A stretch of DNA of 46,221 nucleotides, from IMG/VR virus record IMGVR_UViG_3300003324_000887, positions 1 through 46,221 of that record, one strand, 5' to 3'. Position numbers and translations under genes: made by a program. The stretch's first letter is position 1; every line of letters starts with the position of its first letter. This DNA comes from a virus. The notes beneath the pieces were generated by a model that was given only the letters and a program-made list of their open reading frames with translations, did no database searches and had not been told where the DNA came from. Below are positions 19,358 through 42,035 of this stretch, one piece after another.

Positions 19358-19714
19358 TTGCACTACCCCAGCCCATATATCGCACCTGGCTTACCACGGC
19401 ACAGTACGTTTGACCGTATGCACGCCGTTGTTAATGCCGTGTGTCAGGAATACGGGATAGAGAAAGAGCATTTCTTTAAAGATGGCAGAGCGACTAAAAG
19501 GGCTATTAGTATTCCCAAGCAGGAAGCGTATTATATCATTAAGCTGTATGTAAAAGCGAAAAGCCCTGAAATAGCGAAGTTCTTTAAGATGAATCCATCA
19601 ACGATAAGGCACGGTTGGAGGCTAGTAGCTTTTGAGGTGGATAATAACAGCGAAACAGCAGATAGAATAAAACGGATAAGGCAAAATATAAGCCTATCCA
19701 GCATCAATAAATAA
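19358..19714 (+). CDS. DnaA domain IV-like HTH protein
   Basis: A 118-aa basic protein. The C-terminal half, SPEIAKFFKMNPSTIRHGWRLV, resembles the DNA-binding HTH of DnaA domain IV (IAxYFgRdHSTVxHA). The upstream segment (VVNAVCQEYGIEKEHFF) matches the helix that precedes it there. The start is a TTG at 19358; an ATG at 19418 is an alternative. It may act at the phage or host origin, or as a regulator. Confidence 0.55.
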   Translation: MHYPSPYIAPGLPRHSTFDRMHAVVNAVCQEYGIEKEHFFKDGRATKRAISIPKQEAYYIIKLYVKAKSPEIAKFFKMNPSTIRHGWRLVAFEVDNNSETADRIKRIRQNISLSSINK

Positions 19715-22556: not shown

Positions 22557-23129
22557 ATGCAGATAAGAAACAAGATATTAGGTAAGCATCCCATAAATTG
22601 GCGTTCACTACAATTCATTCAGCAACCCGATTTTAAGCAGCATACCGACGAGAACCGCGAAAAACTGAAACAGTCGATTAAAGACAATGGCTTTATACTC
22701 CCTTTTAATGTATGGAATGATAACGGCACCAATTGGTGCTTAGATGGTTACCATCGTTATCAGGACCTCATAGACCTGGAGAAAGAAGGTGTTGAAATAC
22801 CAGATTTGCTTGATGCACTTTTTATTGATTGTAAGGATAAAGAAGAAGCGGCAAAATATGTGCTGCTGTTTTCGTCTCAATACGCTACCATCACACAGAA
22901 GGGTCTTGATGAGTTCATGCAGATGTATCAACTTCCTATAACGGTCTTAGCGCAGCAGACATCGCTATCCATCTTACCTGAGAACATACCACCGGTATAC
23001 AAAGAACCCAACATTCAGGAGATACAACCGCAATGGTACTTGAATATCAGATGTGAAAGCGAGCAGCATTGCCAGCAGCTATATGAAGAGTTTACAGGGA
23101 AAGGATTTGACGTAAAAATAGTATCATGA
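22557..23129 (+). CDS. ParB/Srx-fold nuclease-like protein
   Basis: The 190-aa protein carries the ParB N-terminal domain pattern: a strand, REKLKQSIKDNGFILPFNVW (residues 34-53) and CLDGYHRYQDL (61-71), where ParB has xxGxRRxxA. In phages such domains occur in small DNases and CTP-dependent switches. It overlaps the ABC-ATPase/acetyltransferase gene by 4 bases (ATGATAG), so the two are one module, just upstream of terminase. Role in packaging or DNA marking is inferred. Confidence 0.72.
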   Translation: MQIRNKILGKHPINWRSLQFIQQPDFKQHTDENREKLKQSIKDNGFILPFNVWNDNGTNWCLDGYHRYQDLIDLEKEGVEIPDLLDALFIDCKDKEEAAKYVLLFSSQYATITQKGLDEFMQMYQLPITVLAQQTSLSILPENIPPVYKEPNIQEIQPQWYLNIRCESEQHCQQLYEEFTGKGFDVKIVS

Positions 23130-24246
23130 TAGGCAATACAGTAGAAGTAAAGTTACAAAGCGAAATATCAGATAGCTTCCGTTGTCAGATGGCCTGCAAT
23201 GCACTGGATATCGATATAAACAAAAAATCTGTCCATCACCTGTTGGTCGATGGCATTTCTATTCCTGAGCAATGGCATGTGGGCCTGATATGTGGAGCAT
23301 CAGGTAGCGGTAAAACCACCTTGGCTAAAAAGGTGTTTGGCGATAATATATTCAGAACAATACTGGATGAAGATAAGCCCATTATTGACCAGCTACCGGC
23401 TAATCTTTCTTATGATGAATGCGCAGAGATATTATCAGGTATCGGCCTGAATAGTGTCCCATGTTGGGTGAGGCCTGTAAAGACGCTCAGCAATGGCCAA
23501 AGAGCGCGAGCAGAGGCCGCACTATTGATGGTTCAGGATGCAGAGGTTATATGTATTGATGAATGGACTTCTGTTGTAGATCGCACAGTGGCTAAAGCTA
23601 TGAGCCATTGCGTACAGAAATTTGCTAAGAAGCGCAATAAACAAATTATCCTGTTGTCCTGCCACTATGATATTATCGAATGGCTATCACCTGATTGGGT
23701 TATCGATTGTAACGAACAAAAGTTTCTGCTTCCGGCCGGGGAAGATTTTTTTTTTCAAAGGAGAGAGCAACTCCAGTTCAATATCAGGAAGATTGGGAGA
23801 GAAAGTTGGAAATACTTTAGCAAGTATCATTATCTGAGTGAGAACCTACCAGGCGGTGAAATACATCTGTATGGATTATACCATAACGATAAGCAGATTG
23901 GTTTCCAGTGTTTTGCGAATTACACACCGCATAGGAAGGGCAAGGCTAAAATATTTCATTCTAACAGAACGGTTATCCATCCTGACTATCAGGGCTTGGA
24001 TTAGGTATAAAGCTAATAAATGAAAGCAGTGCAGTATTTCATAATGAGTTTCCTGCTCATCGCATCATGGCAAAGTTTAGTTCTATACCGGTATTCAAAG
24101 CTATGTTGAAGCAAAAGCAGTGGCGATATATTAAAACAGAGCGTAAAATGGGGAGTGTGACAGTAGGCGGTACGATGGATAGAAAGAGTGGATTTAGGGA
24201 ATATGGTGTAAAAACCTTCCATTTTGAGTATTTAGAAACCAATTAG
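23126..24246 (+). CDS. ABC-type ATPase fused to GNAT acetyltransferase, frameshifted
   Basis: The first frame (23126-24004) encodes an ABC-type ATPase: Walker A GASGSGKT (57-64), signature LSNGQ (121-125) and Walker B VICIDE (141-146). It continues into a GNAT-like domain (KYHYLSENLPGGEIHLYGLY...) and stops at 24002 in the middle of the acetyl-CoA loop (HPDYQG). The -1 frame, from 23995 to TAG at 24244, continues exactly with LGLGIKLINESSAVFHNEF and 60 more GNAT-like residues. The joined protein would be 373 aa, matching the COG2401 architecture. No slippery heptamer is visible, so this is a real single-base deletion or a sequence error rather than programmed recoding. It forms a module with the ParB-like gene. 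Confidence 0.7.
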
Positions 24247-24530: not shown

Positions 24531-24957
24531 TAACAAGCAGGATAAAACGCCTAAAACGCGCTCTTCAAACATCGAGCTCGATAAACGTATTGACGCTATT
24601 ATCGGCTGGATTCTTGAAGGGCACAACACGTCCATAATTAAAGCGAGCTGTGTTAGTACTTGGAGCATTACCGACAGGCAGGCAGCTACTTATATCTCCA
24701 AAGCGCGAAAGGTCATCAAGACCAGAACCAAAGGCAAACTGGATGAAAAGATTGCCTTCCATCTCGAAATACGCCTGCGCTTGTACAATCAGTTAAAAGA
24801 TAAGTCAACTCCATCGGGTGCAGCTGCGGCATTGAAGATACTTGATTCAATGGCTGAGATAGATGGCGTGAAGCAACGTGCAGGCTTCGGCAAGAAGGAA
24901 GAAGAAGGTTCCATACTGCATGATGAGGTTATCGAAACTACACTTGTGTTGAAATGA
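24511..24957 (+). CDS. terS: Terminase small subunit
   Basis: The 148-aa protein has an N-terminal HTH-like region (DKRIDAIIGWILEGHNTSIIKASCVSTWSITDRQAATYISKARKVI) followed by an oligomerisation helix (KIAFHLEIRLRLYNQL). This matches small terminase subunits that recognise the packaging site. It overlaps the large subunit gene by 4 bases (ATGA). Assignment relies on the HTH plus position. Confidence 0.78.
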   Translation: MSKQANDNKQDKTPKTRSSNIELDKRIDAIIGWILEGHNTSIIKASCVSTWSITDRQAATYISKARKVIKTRTKGKLDEKIAFHLEIRLRLYNQLKDKSTPSGAAAALKILDSMAEIDGVKQRAGFGKKEEEGSILHDEVIETTLVLK

Positions 24958-26270
24958 AAAAGAAGCTCCTCAAAATACATTACACCCGGCCGGCTATTAT
25001 CAACCAATACGCCAAGCAACGTCAATTCCTTGACAATCCTGAACGTTTTACCATTGTTGAGGCTACCACTAAGGCGGGTAAAACATCTGGCTGTATCGTG
25101 TGGTTGTATGAGGAAGCTATACAAGGCAGGGATGGAGATAATTACTGGTGGGTGGCGCCAACATCTAAAATATGCCGCATAGCATTCAGGCGTTTTAAAA
25201 GGTTCATGCGTCCTGCAAGGATATTCAAGGCCAACCAATCAGAAATGAGCATCACTTTACGCACCGGTGCAATTATCTTCTTTAAAACAGCGGAAGATCC
25301 TGACGGTCTTTATGGCGAGGACGTGAAAGCAGCAGTGCTGGACGAGGCAACCCGTATGAAAGAAGCCTCTTGGTTTGCGGTATTCTCTACCCTTACCGCT
25401 ACTGAAGGTAAATGCAAGATCATTGGTAACGTAAAAGGTATTGGTAACTGGTGTTATAAGCTGGCCCGGGAAGCTGAAACAGGCAAGAAGGAAAACTGGG
25501 CTTATTTCAAGTTGACCGCTGCCGATGCCGTAGAAGCGGGAGTACTAAAACAGAGCGTTATTGATGAAGCAGCCAGGACACTACCTAAAGGCATATTTCT
25601 TGAGCTGTATTATGCTATTCCTTTCGTAAACAGTTCAGACAAATTTGCGTATGCGTTTGATAGAAATAAACATGTCGCTAAATGCGAAATAAATTATGAC
25701 TACCCTATTTACCTGTCCTTTGACTTTAACAAAAACCCCATATGCTGCACAGTGTTTCAATACATTGATGGCTGTATAAATGTGCCGTATGTATTCAAAC
25801 TACAAAACAGTGACATATACAAGCTATGTGCCCATATTAGGACAAAACTTGAAAAGCCAGGCAAACCGAAACCTCATTACATAGTTAATGGTGATGCCTC
25901 GGGTAAGAACCAAAGTGCCATGGTAAAGGATAACCTGAACTATTTCCGCATTATCAAAGAGGAATTGAAGCTGTCTATTCAACAGATGCAGCAACTTGCA
26001 TCAAATCCTAAGATAGAGGAAAACCAGGTGGTGGTAAATGCCGTACTGGAGCACATACCACACAGAATAGACCCCGACTACGCAGCGCCATTGATATTTG
26101 ATTTTGAATTTGCCGAAATGTTACCAGATGGCACTTTAAAAAAATCTGACCGTAACGACCCAACCCAACAGCTCGACGCATTAGATACATACCGCTATTA
26201 TATCAACAGAAACTTCCGCAAGGCAATATTGAGGGGCTTAAAGGGCATACCTTCTAAATCGGCGGCATAA
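24954..26270 (+). CDS. terL: Terminase large subunit
   Basis: The 438-aa protein has the packaging ATPase motifs: Walker A EATTKAGKTS (36-45) and Walker B AAVLDEATR (127-134). A C-terminal RNase H-like nuclease follows, with Asp257 (YLSFDFNKNP), Asp314 (VNGDASG) and a late acidic cluster (DPTQQLDALDTYRYY). It powers DNA entry through the portal and cuts the concatemer. Length is at the short end for TerL but both domains are complete. Confidence 0.9.
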   Translation: MKKKLLKIHYTRPAIINQYAKQRQFLDNPERFTIVEATTKAGKTSGCIVWLYEEAIQGRDGDNYWWVAPTSKICRIAFRRFKRFMRPARIFKANQSEMSITLRTGAIIFFKTAEDPDGLYGEDVKAAVLDEATRMKEASWFAVFSTLTATEGKCKIIGNVKGIGNWCYKLAREAETGKKENWAYFKLTAADAVEAGVLKQSVIDEAARTLPKGIFLELYYAIPFVNSSDKFAYAFDRNKHVAKCEINYDYPIYLSFDFNKNPICCTVFQYIDGCINVPYVFKLQNSDIYKLCAHIRTKLEKPGKPKPHYIVNGDASGKNQSAMVKDNLNYFRIIKEELKLSIQQMQQLASNPKIEENQVVVNAVLEHIPHRIDPDYAAPLIFDFEFAEMLPDGTLKKSDRNDPTQQLDALDTYRYYINRNFRKAILRGLKGIPSKSAA

Positions 26271-26650: not shown

Positions 26651-26861
26651 GCCGACAGCATTGGCTGAGAATGGTTGGCAATTCTATGAAAAGTGTAATT
26701 GCCAGCGTACGTTAAAATACAGATATATCCATCCAAACAAACCAGGGCTAAAACTAGAGTGGATAGTACGATTTCAGCAGTTCAGTATCAGCGATAAAGG
26801 GTTAACAAAAGTTCCTCTTACTAAATTATCAAAATTGGACGAAGTCCTAAAATCATTATGA
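26637..26861 (+). CDS. Small protein, unknown function
   Basis: The 74-aa product starts at the ATG 26637 (MERNEPTALAENGWQFYEKCNC), inside the end of the membrane-protein gene. An upstream TTG at 26631 is in frame but less likely. Beta-rich, ends with a helix. The stop overlaps the next start (ATGA). No family recognised. Confidence 0.6.
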   Translation: MERNEPTALAENGWQFYEKCNCQRTLKYRYIHPNKPGLKLEWIVRFQQFSISDKGLTKVPLTKLSKLDEVLKSL

Positions 26862-27472
26862 GAAACCCATTCAGACTATTCTTCAATTTATTTAAACGCA
26901 AGCCTAAATCATATTTGCTTGACGACAAATACGAGATAGTGCCTGCATTTACTTGGAAAGGTGAAACGTACTACATGCATCGCGATCCGCTTACGATACA
27001 AGCTGGCAGAGGATTAAATGCAATGGTATTTATGGAAGAACTTATGATGCGTTGTGATATTCGATATTTGGAAGATTACACCAAAGCAGTAGATGAAATA
27101 TTTAGCAATCCGCAAAAGATAGATATCAGTAAACTGGTAAAACTGAACATGCATTTAAAGGAGCGAATACACTTCCTGGCAGCTATACCTGACCATGTGT
27201 ATAAGATGGCAAGTGTGGTTTTCTTTACCAAGCATGAAAGCCCATTTCGGTACGATTTTAAGGAAGGACAGCGCAAAATCAAAGAATGGAAAGAAACCCC
27301 TGGGATGTATGATTTTTTTTTGCAAACTCCCTTAAAGACATTGATACCATCTTTGGCATTGCCGGAACAAGATTCAAGTTCGTATTTGGACCTACAGGAA
27401 CGAATAAGCGAGCTCCATTTGAAAGAGCTCCATCAAGTATTCTCCAGGACAGAATCGAAAACAGATATTTAG
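26858..27472 (+). CDS. Tail assembly chaperone (gpG-like), unshifted form
   Basis: The 204-aa protein lies immediately before the tape measure gene, the standard place for lambda gpG-type tail assembly chaperones. Its reading frame passes through nine T residues at 27313-27321 and ends at 27472. The -1 frame from that point stays open to 27654, giving a longer gpGT-like form. These chaperones coat the tape measure during tail assembly. Sequence similarity alone does not identify it; the frameshift site and the neighbours do. Confidence 0.72.
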   Translation: MRNPFRLFFNLFKRKPKSYLLDDKYEIVPAFTWKGETYYMHRDPLTIQAGRGLNAMVFMEELMMRCDIRYLEDYTKAVDEIFSNPQKIDISKLVKLNMHLKERIHFLAAIPDHVYKMASVVFFTKHESPFRYDFKEGQRKIKEWKETPGMYDFFLQTPLKTLIPSLALPEQDSSSYLDLQERISELHLKELHQVFSRTESKTDI

Positions 27473-40605: not shown

Positions 40606-41589
40606 ATGTTCCCACTTTTAAATTATATAGGTATTCGTGGCTTTGATGCAAATCCGCCAAGCCGTCGGTTCATCAATGAACTGCCAGGCATTACTATGAG
40701 AAACATGCAGAAAGTAGTAAACGAAGAACAGGTTACTTTCTTGGGTTCATGGCAAGATGTGCAAAGCAGAGGATGGATGCGGCTATCTACTGATATCCGT
40801 AATAAGATGAGGAGCACCTATAATTTAAAAACTACCCGTGAATTGATTTCAATAACCTCATCTGATGTTGCAGATACAATTGTAGCGAGCGAGCATTACA
40901 GAGGAATTATTGTCGGTTCAGGATATGATTTCAACGGCTTCTTTGCATTTCACATACGGTCAATAAAATTGAAAGCTGCGGCTGCAGCAGGAATTATCGT
41001 AAAAATATTCGACCAGGATGGTAGCGAATTGGACAGCTATTCAATTAATACGGTTGTTGGTAAGAATACCATTTCGGTAAATCGTAGTTATGCAGCCAGA
41101 GAGTTATTCATAGCAGTGGATGCCAGCAACATAGATTTATATCAGTCAGAATTTCACATTCCTTCGCTACATATGTACTATGAAAGCGTTTGCGATCTGT
41201 TAGGGCATTCAGATAAGGTCACTGTATATAGTGCAGAGGCAATGAAAGAAACGCCATCAGTGCATACGAAAACAGGCATCTCCTACGGTTTGTCTGTTGA
41301 TATGATGGCCACTTGCGATTACTCAAGCATTGTTTCTTATAACCTAGTTAGTTTTCTTCCAGCATGGATGTATTTGTGTGGTGCAGAGCTTATGCTTGAA
41401 AGACAGTTTTCTAACAAGAAAAACGAGCTCACGACAGTAGACGCAGAAATGGCCGAAGAACTACGCGACCATTATACCGGTGAATACGAAAATGCGCTGA
41501 ATGATGCCATTAAAGGAATAAGAATTGATAAATGCGACACCTGTATAGAGTGCAGGGAATATGTGACGAGAGTAGAACGATTACCATGA
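40606..41589 (+). CDS. Head-tail region structural protein, unknown
   Basis: The 327-aa protein has a central beta-rich part (GIIVKIFDQDGSELDSYSINTVVGKNTISV) and ends DKCDTCIECREYVTRVERLP. Downstream are neck and tail genes, so it is probably a connector or a head-associated protein. It overlaps the following gene by 4 bases. No family recognised. Confidence 0.62.
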   Translation: MFPLLNYIGIRGFDANPPSRRFINELPGITMRNMQKVVNEEQVTFLGSWQDVQSRGWMRLSTDIRNKMRSTYNLKTTRELISITSSDVADTIVASEHYRGIIVGSGYDFNGFFAFHIRSIKLKAAAAAGIIVKIFDQDGSELDSYSINTVVGKNTISVNRSYAARELFIAVDASNIDLYQSEFHIPSLHMYYESVCDLLGHSDKVTVYSAEAMKETPSVHTKTGISYGLSVDMMATCDYSSIVSYNLVSFLPAWMYLCGAELMLERQFSNKKNELTTVDAEMAEELRDHYTGEYENALNDAIKGIRIDKCDTCIECREYVTRVERLP

Positions 41590-42035
41590 GTCAGGTACAA
41601 ATAAGATTCGATGCAAAGCATTTAGCCGAAGAAATAGGCGATAAGCTAAGGGTCGAATTGGCTATCAAGCCACTACTGAGAATCGTAGCTTTTGACTTGG
41701 TAGCATTGATGACAGACAGGATACATAATCAGGGTTTGGATGCAAGCGGAAGCAGAATAGGAACTTACGGAAGGGCATATTTAAAGGTAAGGATGTCCAA
41801 ATATAAAAGGACAGGAGACTCCAAAATAATTATGAGCCTTACTCGTCAACTGGAAAATGATTGGGCTGTAGGTGAAACAGAAAGAGGTTGGGGGATTGGA
41901 TTTAATAACCCGTATAATGCTCAAAAAGCAATTTGGGTAGAGGAACAAACAGGAAAGAAAATTGTTCAGCTCAGTTCAGATGAACTTGAATATGCTGAAA
42001 AAAAAATAAACGAATTGTTAGCGCAACGCGGATAA
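41586..42035 (+). CDS. Neck / virion morphogenesis protein (gp10/gpG type)
   Basis: The 149-aa product starts MSQVQIRFDAKHLAEEIGDKLRVELAIKPLLR at 41586; an upstream start at 41532 would overlap the previous gene by 58 bases. RAYLKVRMSKYKRTGDSKIIMSLTRQLENDWAVG and the length fit phage head-tail joining proteins that close the connector. The stop overlaps the next ATG (TAATG). Confidence 0.65.
   Translation: MSQVQIRFDAKHLAEEIGDKLRVELAIKPLLRIVAFDLVALMTDRIHNQGLDASGSRIGTYGRAYLKVRMSKYKRTGDSKIIMSLTRQLENDWAVGETERGWGIGFNNPYNAQKAIWVEEQTGKKIVQLSSDELEYAEKKINELLAQRG

Follow-up and report, generated by a model that had tools for sequence, protein, structure and literature searches.

Among the described systems closest to the locus analysed here, dnaX yields from one gene an N-terminal ATPase either alone or together with a C-terminal domain (the tau/gamma pair). 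According to the passages on dnaX in PMC5009743, its mechanism varies by lineage (a -1 frameshift, a reversed arrangement or slippage at nine Ts), and stops of the other frames lie nearby. The same passages describe runs of nine A or T as sites of efficient polymerase slippage in bacteria, which make dnaX gamma in Thermus (PMC5009743). A different precedent is the +1 frameshift site of prfB, whose consensus is given as CTT_TGA_C behind a Shine-Dalgarno sequence in the corresponding part of PMC3711429. By domain content, the nearest described relative is the pT24-type system, with the same domains as the gene studied here: for an ABC ATPase with a coupled GNAT, acylation of a DNA base was predicted, pT24 being named (Aravind and colleagues; Iyer et al.; portion of PMC7824862 on this family). 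pT24 belongs to the same homology set, with 37% identity over 98% of the first ABC-GNAT ORF of our sequence. The word 'frameshift' is absent from the portion of the text of PMC7824862 covered, and no report of recoding in the ABC-GNAT family was found in the part of the full-text literature covered, recoding and jumbo-phage papers included. The com-mom pair of phage Mu offers a further comparison: shared with the ABC-GNAT family are an upstream Com-like Zn-finger gene in its Mu-like members (Com being the activator of Mu mom), the GNAT fold and an HY motif, whereas Mu Mom has no ABC domain. The match of ABC-GNAT to the Mom profile was collinear and marginal (hhalign P 0.002, probability 13%), and a phage Mom stood at rank 10 among viral folds in the structure comparison.

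The DNA stretch considered here (the window) is a 46,221-base IMG/VR virus record, which was compared with its relatives in a set of 180 non-redundant loci, the window counted as one; the relatives are not mutually independent, so that multiplied probabilities overstate significance. We consider it probable (roughly 0.8) that the ABC-GNAT family keeps a two-protein output through at least three interchangeable recoding devices acting at one codon position with a shared off-frame stop; it would then be a viral DNA-modification counterpart of dnaX. The devices would be homopolymer slippage, a release-factor-2-type shift in which a sense codon takes the place of the stop, and slippery heptamers for a -1 shift that are combined with a hairpin.

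In the window, the module, its linker and break and the neighbouring terminase gene lie on the plus strand. The ParB-like partner gene (ParB_N/Srx fold, 190 aa; 22557-23129) is followed by the frame-0 ORF for the ABC ATPase and the first half of the GNAT (292 aa; 23126-24004), and the two share the ATGA at 23126-23129, so that the 4-base overlap reported in the earlier note stands with all its coordinates correct. The ParB-like protein matches PHROG ParB-like families alone and weakly (E 6e-5 to 6e-4), its similarity to ParB_N being weak and no HTH family being found by Pfam; its positional counterpart in the related phage Pmp13 is accepted by Pfam ParB_N (E 2e-7). Of the 180 loci, 100 have a ParB-like gene immediately upstream, which bears out the reading of the pair as a conserved module. 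The term 'partition-like', used for it in the earlier note, is probably misleading, since the N-terminal domain of the Pmp13 partner is about 55-63% identical to regions of annotated phage DNA (adenine) methyltransferases. The ABC part is recognized by Pfam ABC_tran (E 7e-9) and carries a P-loop, an LSNG signature, a DE motif and an H-loop; GxSGxGK, LSxG, DE and H are invariant among 60 aligned relatives (alignment A2). The ORF matches PHROG 11143, the GNAT assignment, with E 2e-71, and Pfam GNAT models were matched in 22 of 25 intact relatives. For the relative L004, AlphaFold gives a model (mean pLDDT 90) in which an ABC nucleotide-binding domain is followed by a less certain linker and a second domain; the pLDDT drops to 70-77 at residues 201-220, which correspond to the interdomain linker, and Foldseek matches the model to ABC ATPases. 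PADLOC gave general ATPase-level matches in the window and nothing more specific. The claim that packaging genes are nearby holds as well: a terminase large subunit gene lies downstream (24954-26270; matched by PHROG terminase families and, at an E of 1e-4 that misses the cut-off, by Pfam Terminase_3), its matches being remote (25-28% identity), and in relatives the module is often found near terminase genes. Elsewhere in the window, 19358-19714 encodes a small protein of 118 aa, most of which is the helix-turn-helix domain known from the C terminus of DnaA (Pfam PF08299, E 2e-9).

The GNAT domain is present in the window, but it is split over two frames at the Q-x-x-G-x-G acyl-CoA loop (YQG|LGLG) instead of lying in one frame. 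Frame 0 runs to ...HPDYQGLD and ends at TAG 24002-24004, whereas the -1 frame continues from 23998 with GLGIKLINESS... for 82 residues to a stop at 24244-24246, as had been noticed earlier. This second half (23998-24246) shows 59-60% identity to the C-terminal part that L002 and L004 read in frame, and in the closest relatives, L002-L013 (59-70% identity in the first part), both GNAT parts are contiguous in one frame (tblastn); the -1-frame stretch is thus real GNAT sequence. More broadly, the GNAT frame is open, for at least 118 residues from a conserved Trp, in 173 of 176 non-redundant relatives that do not run off the contig. Intact copies exist, and the objection foreseen in the earlier note, that homologues would always have the two halves in different genes, does not hold for this position. 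The three broken GNAT frames belong to the window, pT24 and L225, with three different stop positions. In Tenacibaculum phage pT24 (L087, 3753) and in L225 the frame is interrupted elsewhere than in the window, and the pT24 gene is annotated as two ABC pieces.

The joined product suggested in the earlier note implies that a programmed -1 frameshift takes place at 23998-24004 and yields the full GNAT. The exact continuation of the domain in the -1 frame speaks for this idea; we regard it as extremely improbable, because the break has no slippery heptamer, no relative changes frame there and the GNAT is in one frame in 173 of 176 relatives. On the same grounds, judging from the sequences compared, the break is a private event, either a fresh indel or mutation or a sequence error. 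An exact-pattern scan of viral contigs, among which very near records may be hidden, found no second copy of the window virus. The break would remove the second half of the GNAT and leave the ABC protein and its tail intact, so that the window as sequenced could give ABC products but no complete GNAT.

The frame changes that recur in the family are located elsewhere, near residues 200-215 (tblastn), that is, at the interdomain linker, and we think it very likely that they represent programmed recoding across the ABC-GNAT family. In 120 of the 180 loci the site codon is preceded by an in-frame NGG-RGG-NNN pattern, a Shine-Dalgarno (SD) sequence followed by a free triplet. Among these 120 SD loci the site codon is CTT in 91 and GTT in 20, with a few others, and in 115 the codon behind it is itself followed by a C. 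Whenever the site encodes Leu the codon is CTT (91/91), compared with about 12% of the Leu codons of the same genes, and Val is always GTT (20/20). The NNN spacer between the SD and CTT has changed at least 78 times on the tree, while its surroundings were kept. In prfB, the gap between the Shine-Dalgarno sequence and CTT is exactly 3 nt. The relatives are like prfB in having the Shine-Dalgarno, the 3-nt gap, CTT, and one codon and then C. They differ from it in that a sense codon (CGG, TGG, CAA, CGA and others) replaces the stop, the A-site position being a sense codon in 120 of 120 SD loci and never the UGA typical of prfB, and in that frame 0 leads to the long product. The window itself lacks the Shine-Dalgarno 3 nt before CTT and the C after the A-site codon, and carries a T10 run at the site.

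It could be argued that the junction motif reflects a constraint on the protein linker or a DNA or RNA binding site, for instance for packaging, a repressor or a translational operator. Indeed, the motif also encodes a recurrent RSLxRRP-like linker, and terminase genes are near. We nevertheless find this very unlikely, since CTT is invariant among six Leu codons, the codon register and the 3-nt spacing are fixed while the NNN spacer is free, and slippery runs substitute at the same place, with the GNAT moved to another frame and the off-frame stop kept. Taken together, these features argue for a change of frame and not for binding. Translation initiating internally behind GGAGG was also considered and rejected: at most CTT CGG and CTT CAA sites, no ATG, GTG or TTG is in place (by eye).

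The CTT site is found without the SD pattern in 21 further loci, and Bacteroidota genome bins are the origin of some (L235, L241) of the 11 loci classed as 'other'. In L038, L042, L051, L053, L058, L066, L070, L073, L244 and similar loci, CTT CGG has no Shine-Dalgarno nearby (CGT GAC TGT CTT CGG), and L062, L235 and L241 have CCC CGG C. A possible reason for such SD-less shift codons is a host in which the anti-Shine-Dalgarno plays no part. One locus, L167, was assigned to the SD class manually, its frame being broken further upstream. In GTDB genomes we confirmed 428 stretches of the family, the best being in Planctomycetota, Nonomuraea, Endozoicomonas, Rhizobiales, Pasteurella and others.

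In two lineages of the tree the GNAT lies in the -1 frame. Fourteen loci are labelled as -1 type; in these the GNAT can be reached solely via a frame change, and one of them has an extra upstream break. The first lineage (L168-L178) carries A_AAA_AAA, an X_XXY_YYZ heptamer followed by a hairpin; the pattern is weaker in L171 and L173-L175, where the A run is longer. In seven of the L168-L178 loci the hairpin has 8-10 bp and lies a few bases downstream, and three of its pairs are changed on both sides. The second lineage includes isolate phages and prophages (P335, Vinitor-27, Javan141 and MismyG). Not all of its members have a textbook heptamer as slippery site; L096 and L097, contigs related to the P335 lineage, have T_TTT_TTT. 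Homopolymer types (T10, T11 and A9-A12) arise elsewhere on the tree. Since the device labels need 24 changes by parsimony, the devices were exchanged repeatedly.

The feature common to all device classes is the stop in the frame +1 relative to the GNAT. In 177 of the 180 loci the first stop of this frame stands at one fixed distance, 28 nt, from the start of the conserved Trp codon, downstream of it, and lies across the Leu of an HHYL/KYHYL motif. The stop word itself has switched among TGA, TAA and TAG at least 40 times on the tree. In the window, the Trp codon is at 23807-23809, and the GNAT+1 frame (23757-23837) would give the proposed short product a tail of 26 residues, ending in ...LASIII before TGA 23835-23837. 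Behind SD-type sites the tails are 24-37 residues long, except in L057, L064 and L075, where they reach 57. These three, which are close together on the tree, are the exceptions to the conserved position; in them the GNAT+1 stop has been lost (CTC codon) and the SD-like bases are kept. To what extent does the protein sequence alone produce such a stop? When the same genes were redrawn with synonymous codons, the conserved stop ended the frame in a mean of 37% of cases, compared with 50 of 50 observed, for 50 loci chosen on SD+CTT (the counts of CTT, GTT and C given above condition on SD alone). The GNAT-1 frame, used as a control, has a recurrent stop as well: in 118 of 180 loci it follows the Trp start by 11 nt. 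The protein sequence therefore accounts for part of the stop pattern, though not for its presence in 98% of loci. In the -1 lineages, it is the frame-0 ABC ORF that is ended by the conserved GNAT+1 stop, so that both arrangements would yield an ABC protein with a tail and an ABC-GNAT protein.

In the window the place of the shift codon is taken by a run of ten Ts (23746-23755) on the ABC/GNAT linker, the sole homopolymer of at least 10 in the 46 kb and the proposed slippage site; the earlier note had overlooked it. A T10 run is present in frame in L002-L005, and a T11 run out of frame in L016. Together with the window these form a clade of six (support 99), and in each of these loci the T run is the longest run. 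As in Thermus dnaX, a run of at least 9 T/A at a domain boundary is combined with nearby stops in both other frames, which close in 26 and 20 residues after the T10 of the window. In frame, the run encodes FFF; given the amino acids, the codon choice is no more than modestly unlikely, the joint value of 10^-4.9 being based on five genes and mostly due to L005. No RNA hairpin beyond those of shuffled sequences was found 3' of the T10 in the window. We consider it likely, though less so than recoding in the family as a whole, that the T10 run acts as a recoding site in the window. Polymerase slippage would be the likeliest mechanism in this clade and ribosome slippage a less likely one, because nine A or T in a row suffice for efficient slippage in bacteria and are what Thermus dnaX relies on, and because the site shows no stimulatory RNA structure and both off-frames close within 26 codons.

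The main rival for the T10 clade is phase variation, in which slippage during DNA replication would toggle the GNAT half between genomes instead of giving two products simultaneously. Phase-variable DNA-modification genes are common, and related loci do have T10 in frame and T11 (L016) or A12 (L019) out of frame. Set against this are the rest of the family, most of which has no long run and has ribosomal-frameshift signals at the same spot, and the off-frame stop common to all types. As a replacement for recoding, phase variation thus seems distinctly unlikely, and in this clade both could hold. Two further runs, T9 at 27313 (ORF 26858-27472) and A9 at 41998 (ORF 41532-42035), lie inside or at the end of ORFs of the window and are possible slippage sites.

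Returning to the two-product reading, the linker would be a programmed recoding site through which one gene encodes both an ABC-GNAT fusion and a tailed ABC protein. The tail, 26 residues long in the window, would follow the GNAT+1 frame as far as the conserved stop. In the window, slippage at T10 would alter the frame in a fraction of the products, both off-frames stopping within 26 codons. We infer the production of two proteins from the conservation of the site, the stop and the structure. The full account, which combines family-wide recoding at the linker, a dnaX-like pair of ABC and ABC-GNAT proteins, the T10 device in the window and a separate private break, seems to us probable to the same degree as the main proposal. 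The parallel to dnaX would lie in an ATPase that is produced either by itself or joined to a C-terminal domain, in devices that depend on the lineage and in nearby off-frame stops. The differences are that the ABC-GNAT protein is unrelated to that of dnaX, that a prfB-like type is added to the devices, and that the short product would not end directly but carry a tail of 24-37 residues up to a fixed stop.

Should the proposal hold, two proteins would come from each of hundreds of genes in phages and bacteria that at present are labelled 'ABC transporter' or 'hypothetical protein' or are entered as two broken genes. They would offer a natural comparison of sense-codon +1 shifting, -1 shifting and slippage with the same output, including loci that keep the shift codon without a Shine-Dalgarno, some of them from Bacteroidota genome bins. 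An ATPase-only subunit would also be predicted to be necessary for an uncharacterised DNA modification system.

As for function, it is tempting to think that the ABC subunit alone might drive loading or assembly on DNA, that the GNAT might modify bases to evade restriction and that the ParB-like partner might help to choose the DNA. The earlier statement that such a module has no clear known role in phage goes too far, since acyl modification of DNA bases had already been predicted for the ABC-GNAT family (in the portion of PMC7824862 concerned). We lean slightly towards this prediction. Alternatively, the enzyme might acylate a protein or a small molecule, with host RNA polymerase, the ribosome or terminase as conceivable targets. 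Acetylation of host proteins is known for phage GNATs, Rac among them (in the corresponding lines of PMC7824862), and the best solved-structure matches are ordinary acetyltransferases. We hold a protein or small-molecule target to be rather unlikely, in view of the earlier DNA-base prediction and of gene neighbours that suggest DNA modification (the Com-like gene in 22 of 180 loci, the ParB domain shared with methyltransferases, ASCH and formyltransferase).

The family consists of widespread phage and prophage genes, usually beside a ParB-like or a Com-like gene. The Com-like Zn-ribbon gene was identified upstream by motif in those 22 loci, and Pfam (PF10122) confirms the two tested; it may possibly provide post-transcriptional control besides recoding. 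A Com-like gene replaces ParB upstream in L093, L102-L104, L106, L109-L112 and 13 others. In Appa, a ParB-like gene is followed by Mom-like genes. In Streptococcus phage MismyG (L089, 2477-4461), ParB/Srx, ABC, GNAT and ASCH-domain genes stand in a row. A formyl transferase gene (PF00551) lies directly downstream of ABC-GNAT in L092 (4122-4595) and L093 (4077-4694), a Porphyromonas and a Pseudomonas phage, respectively.
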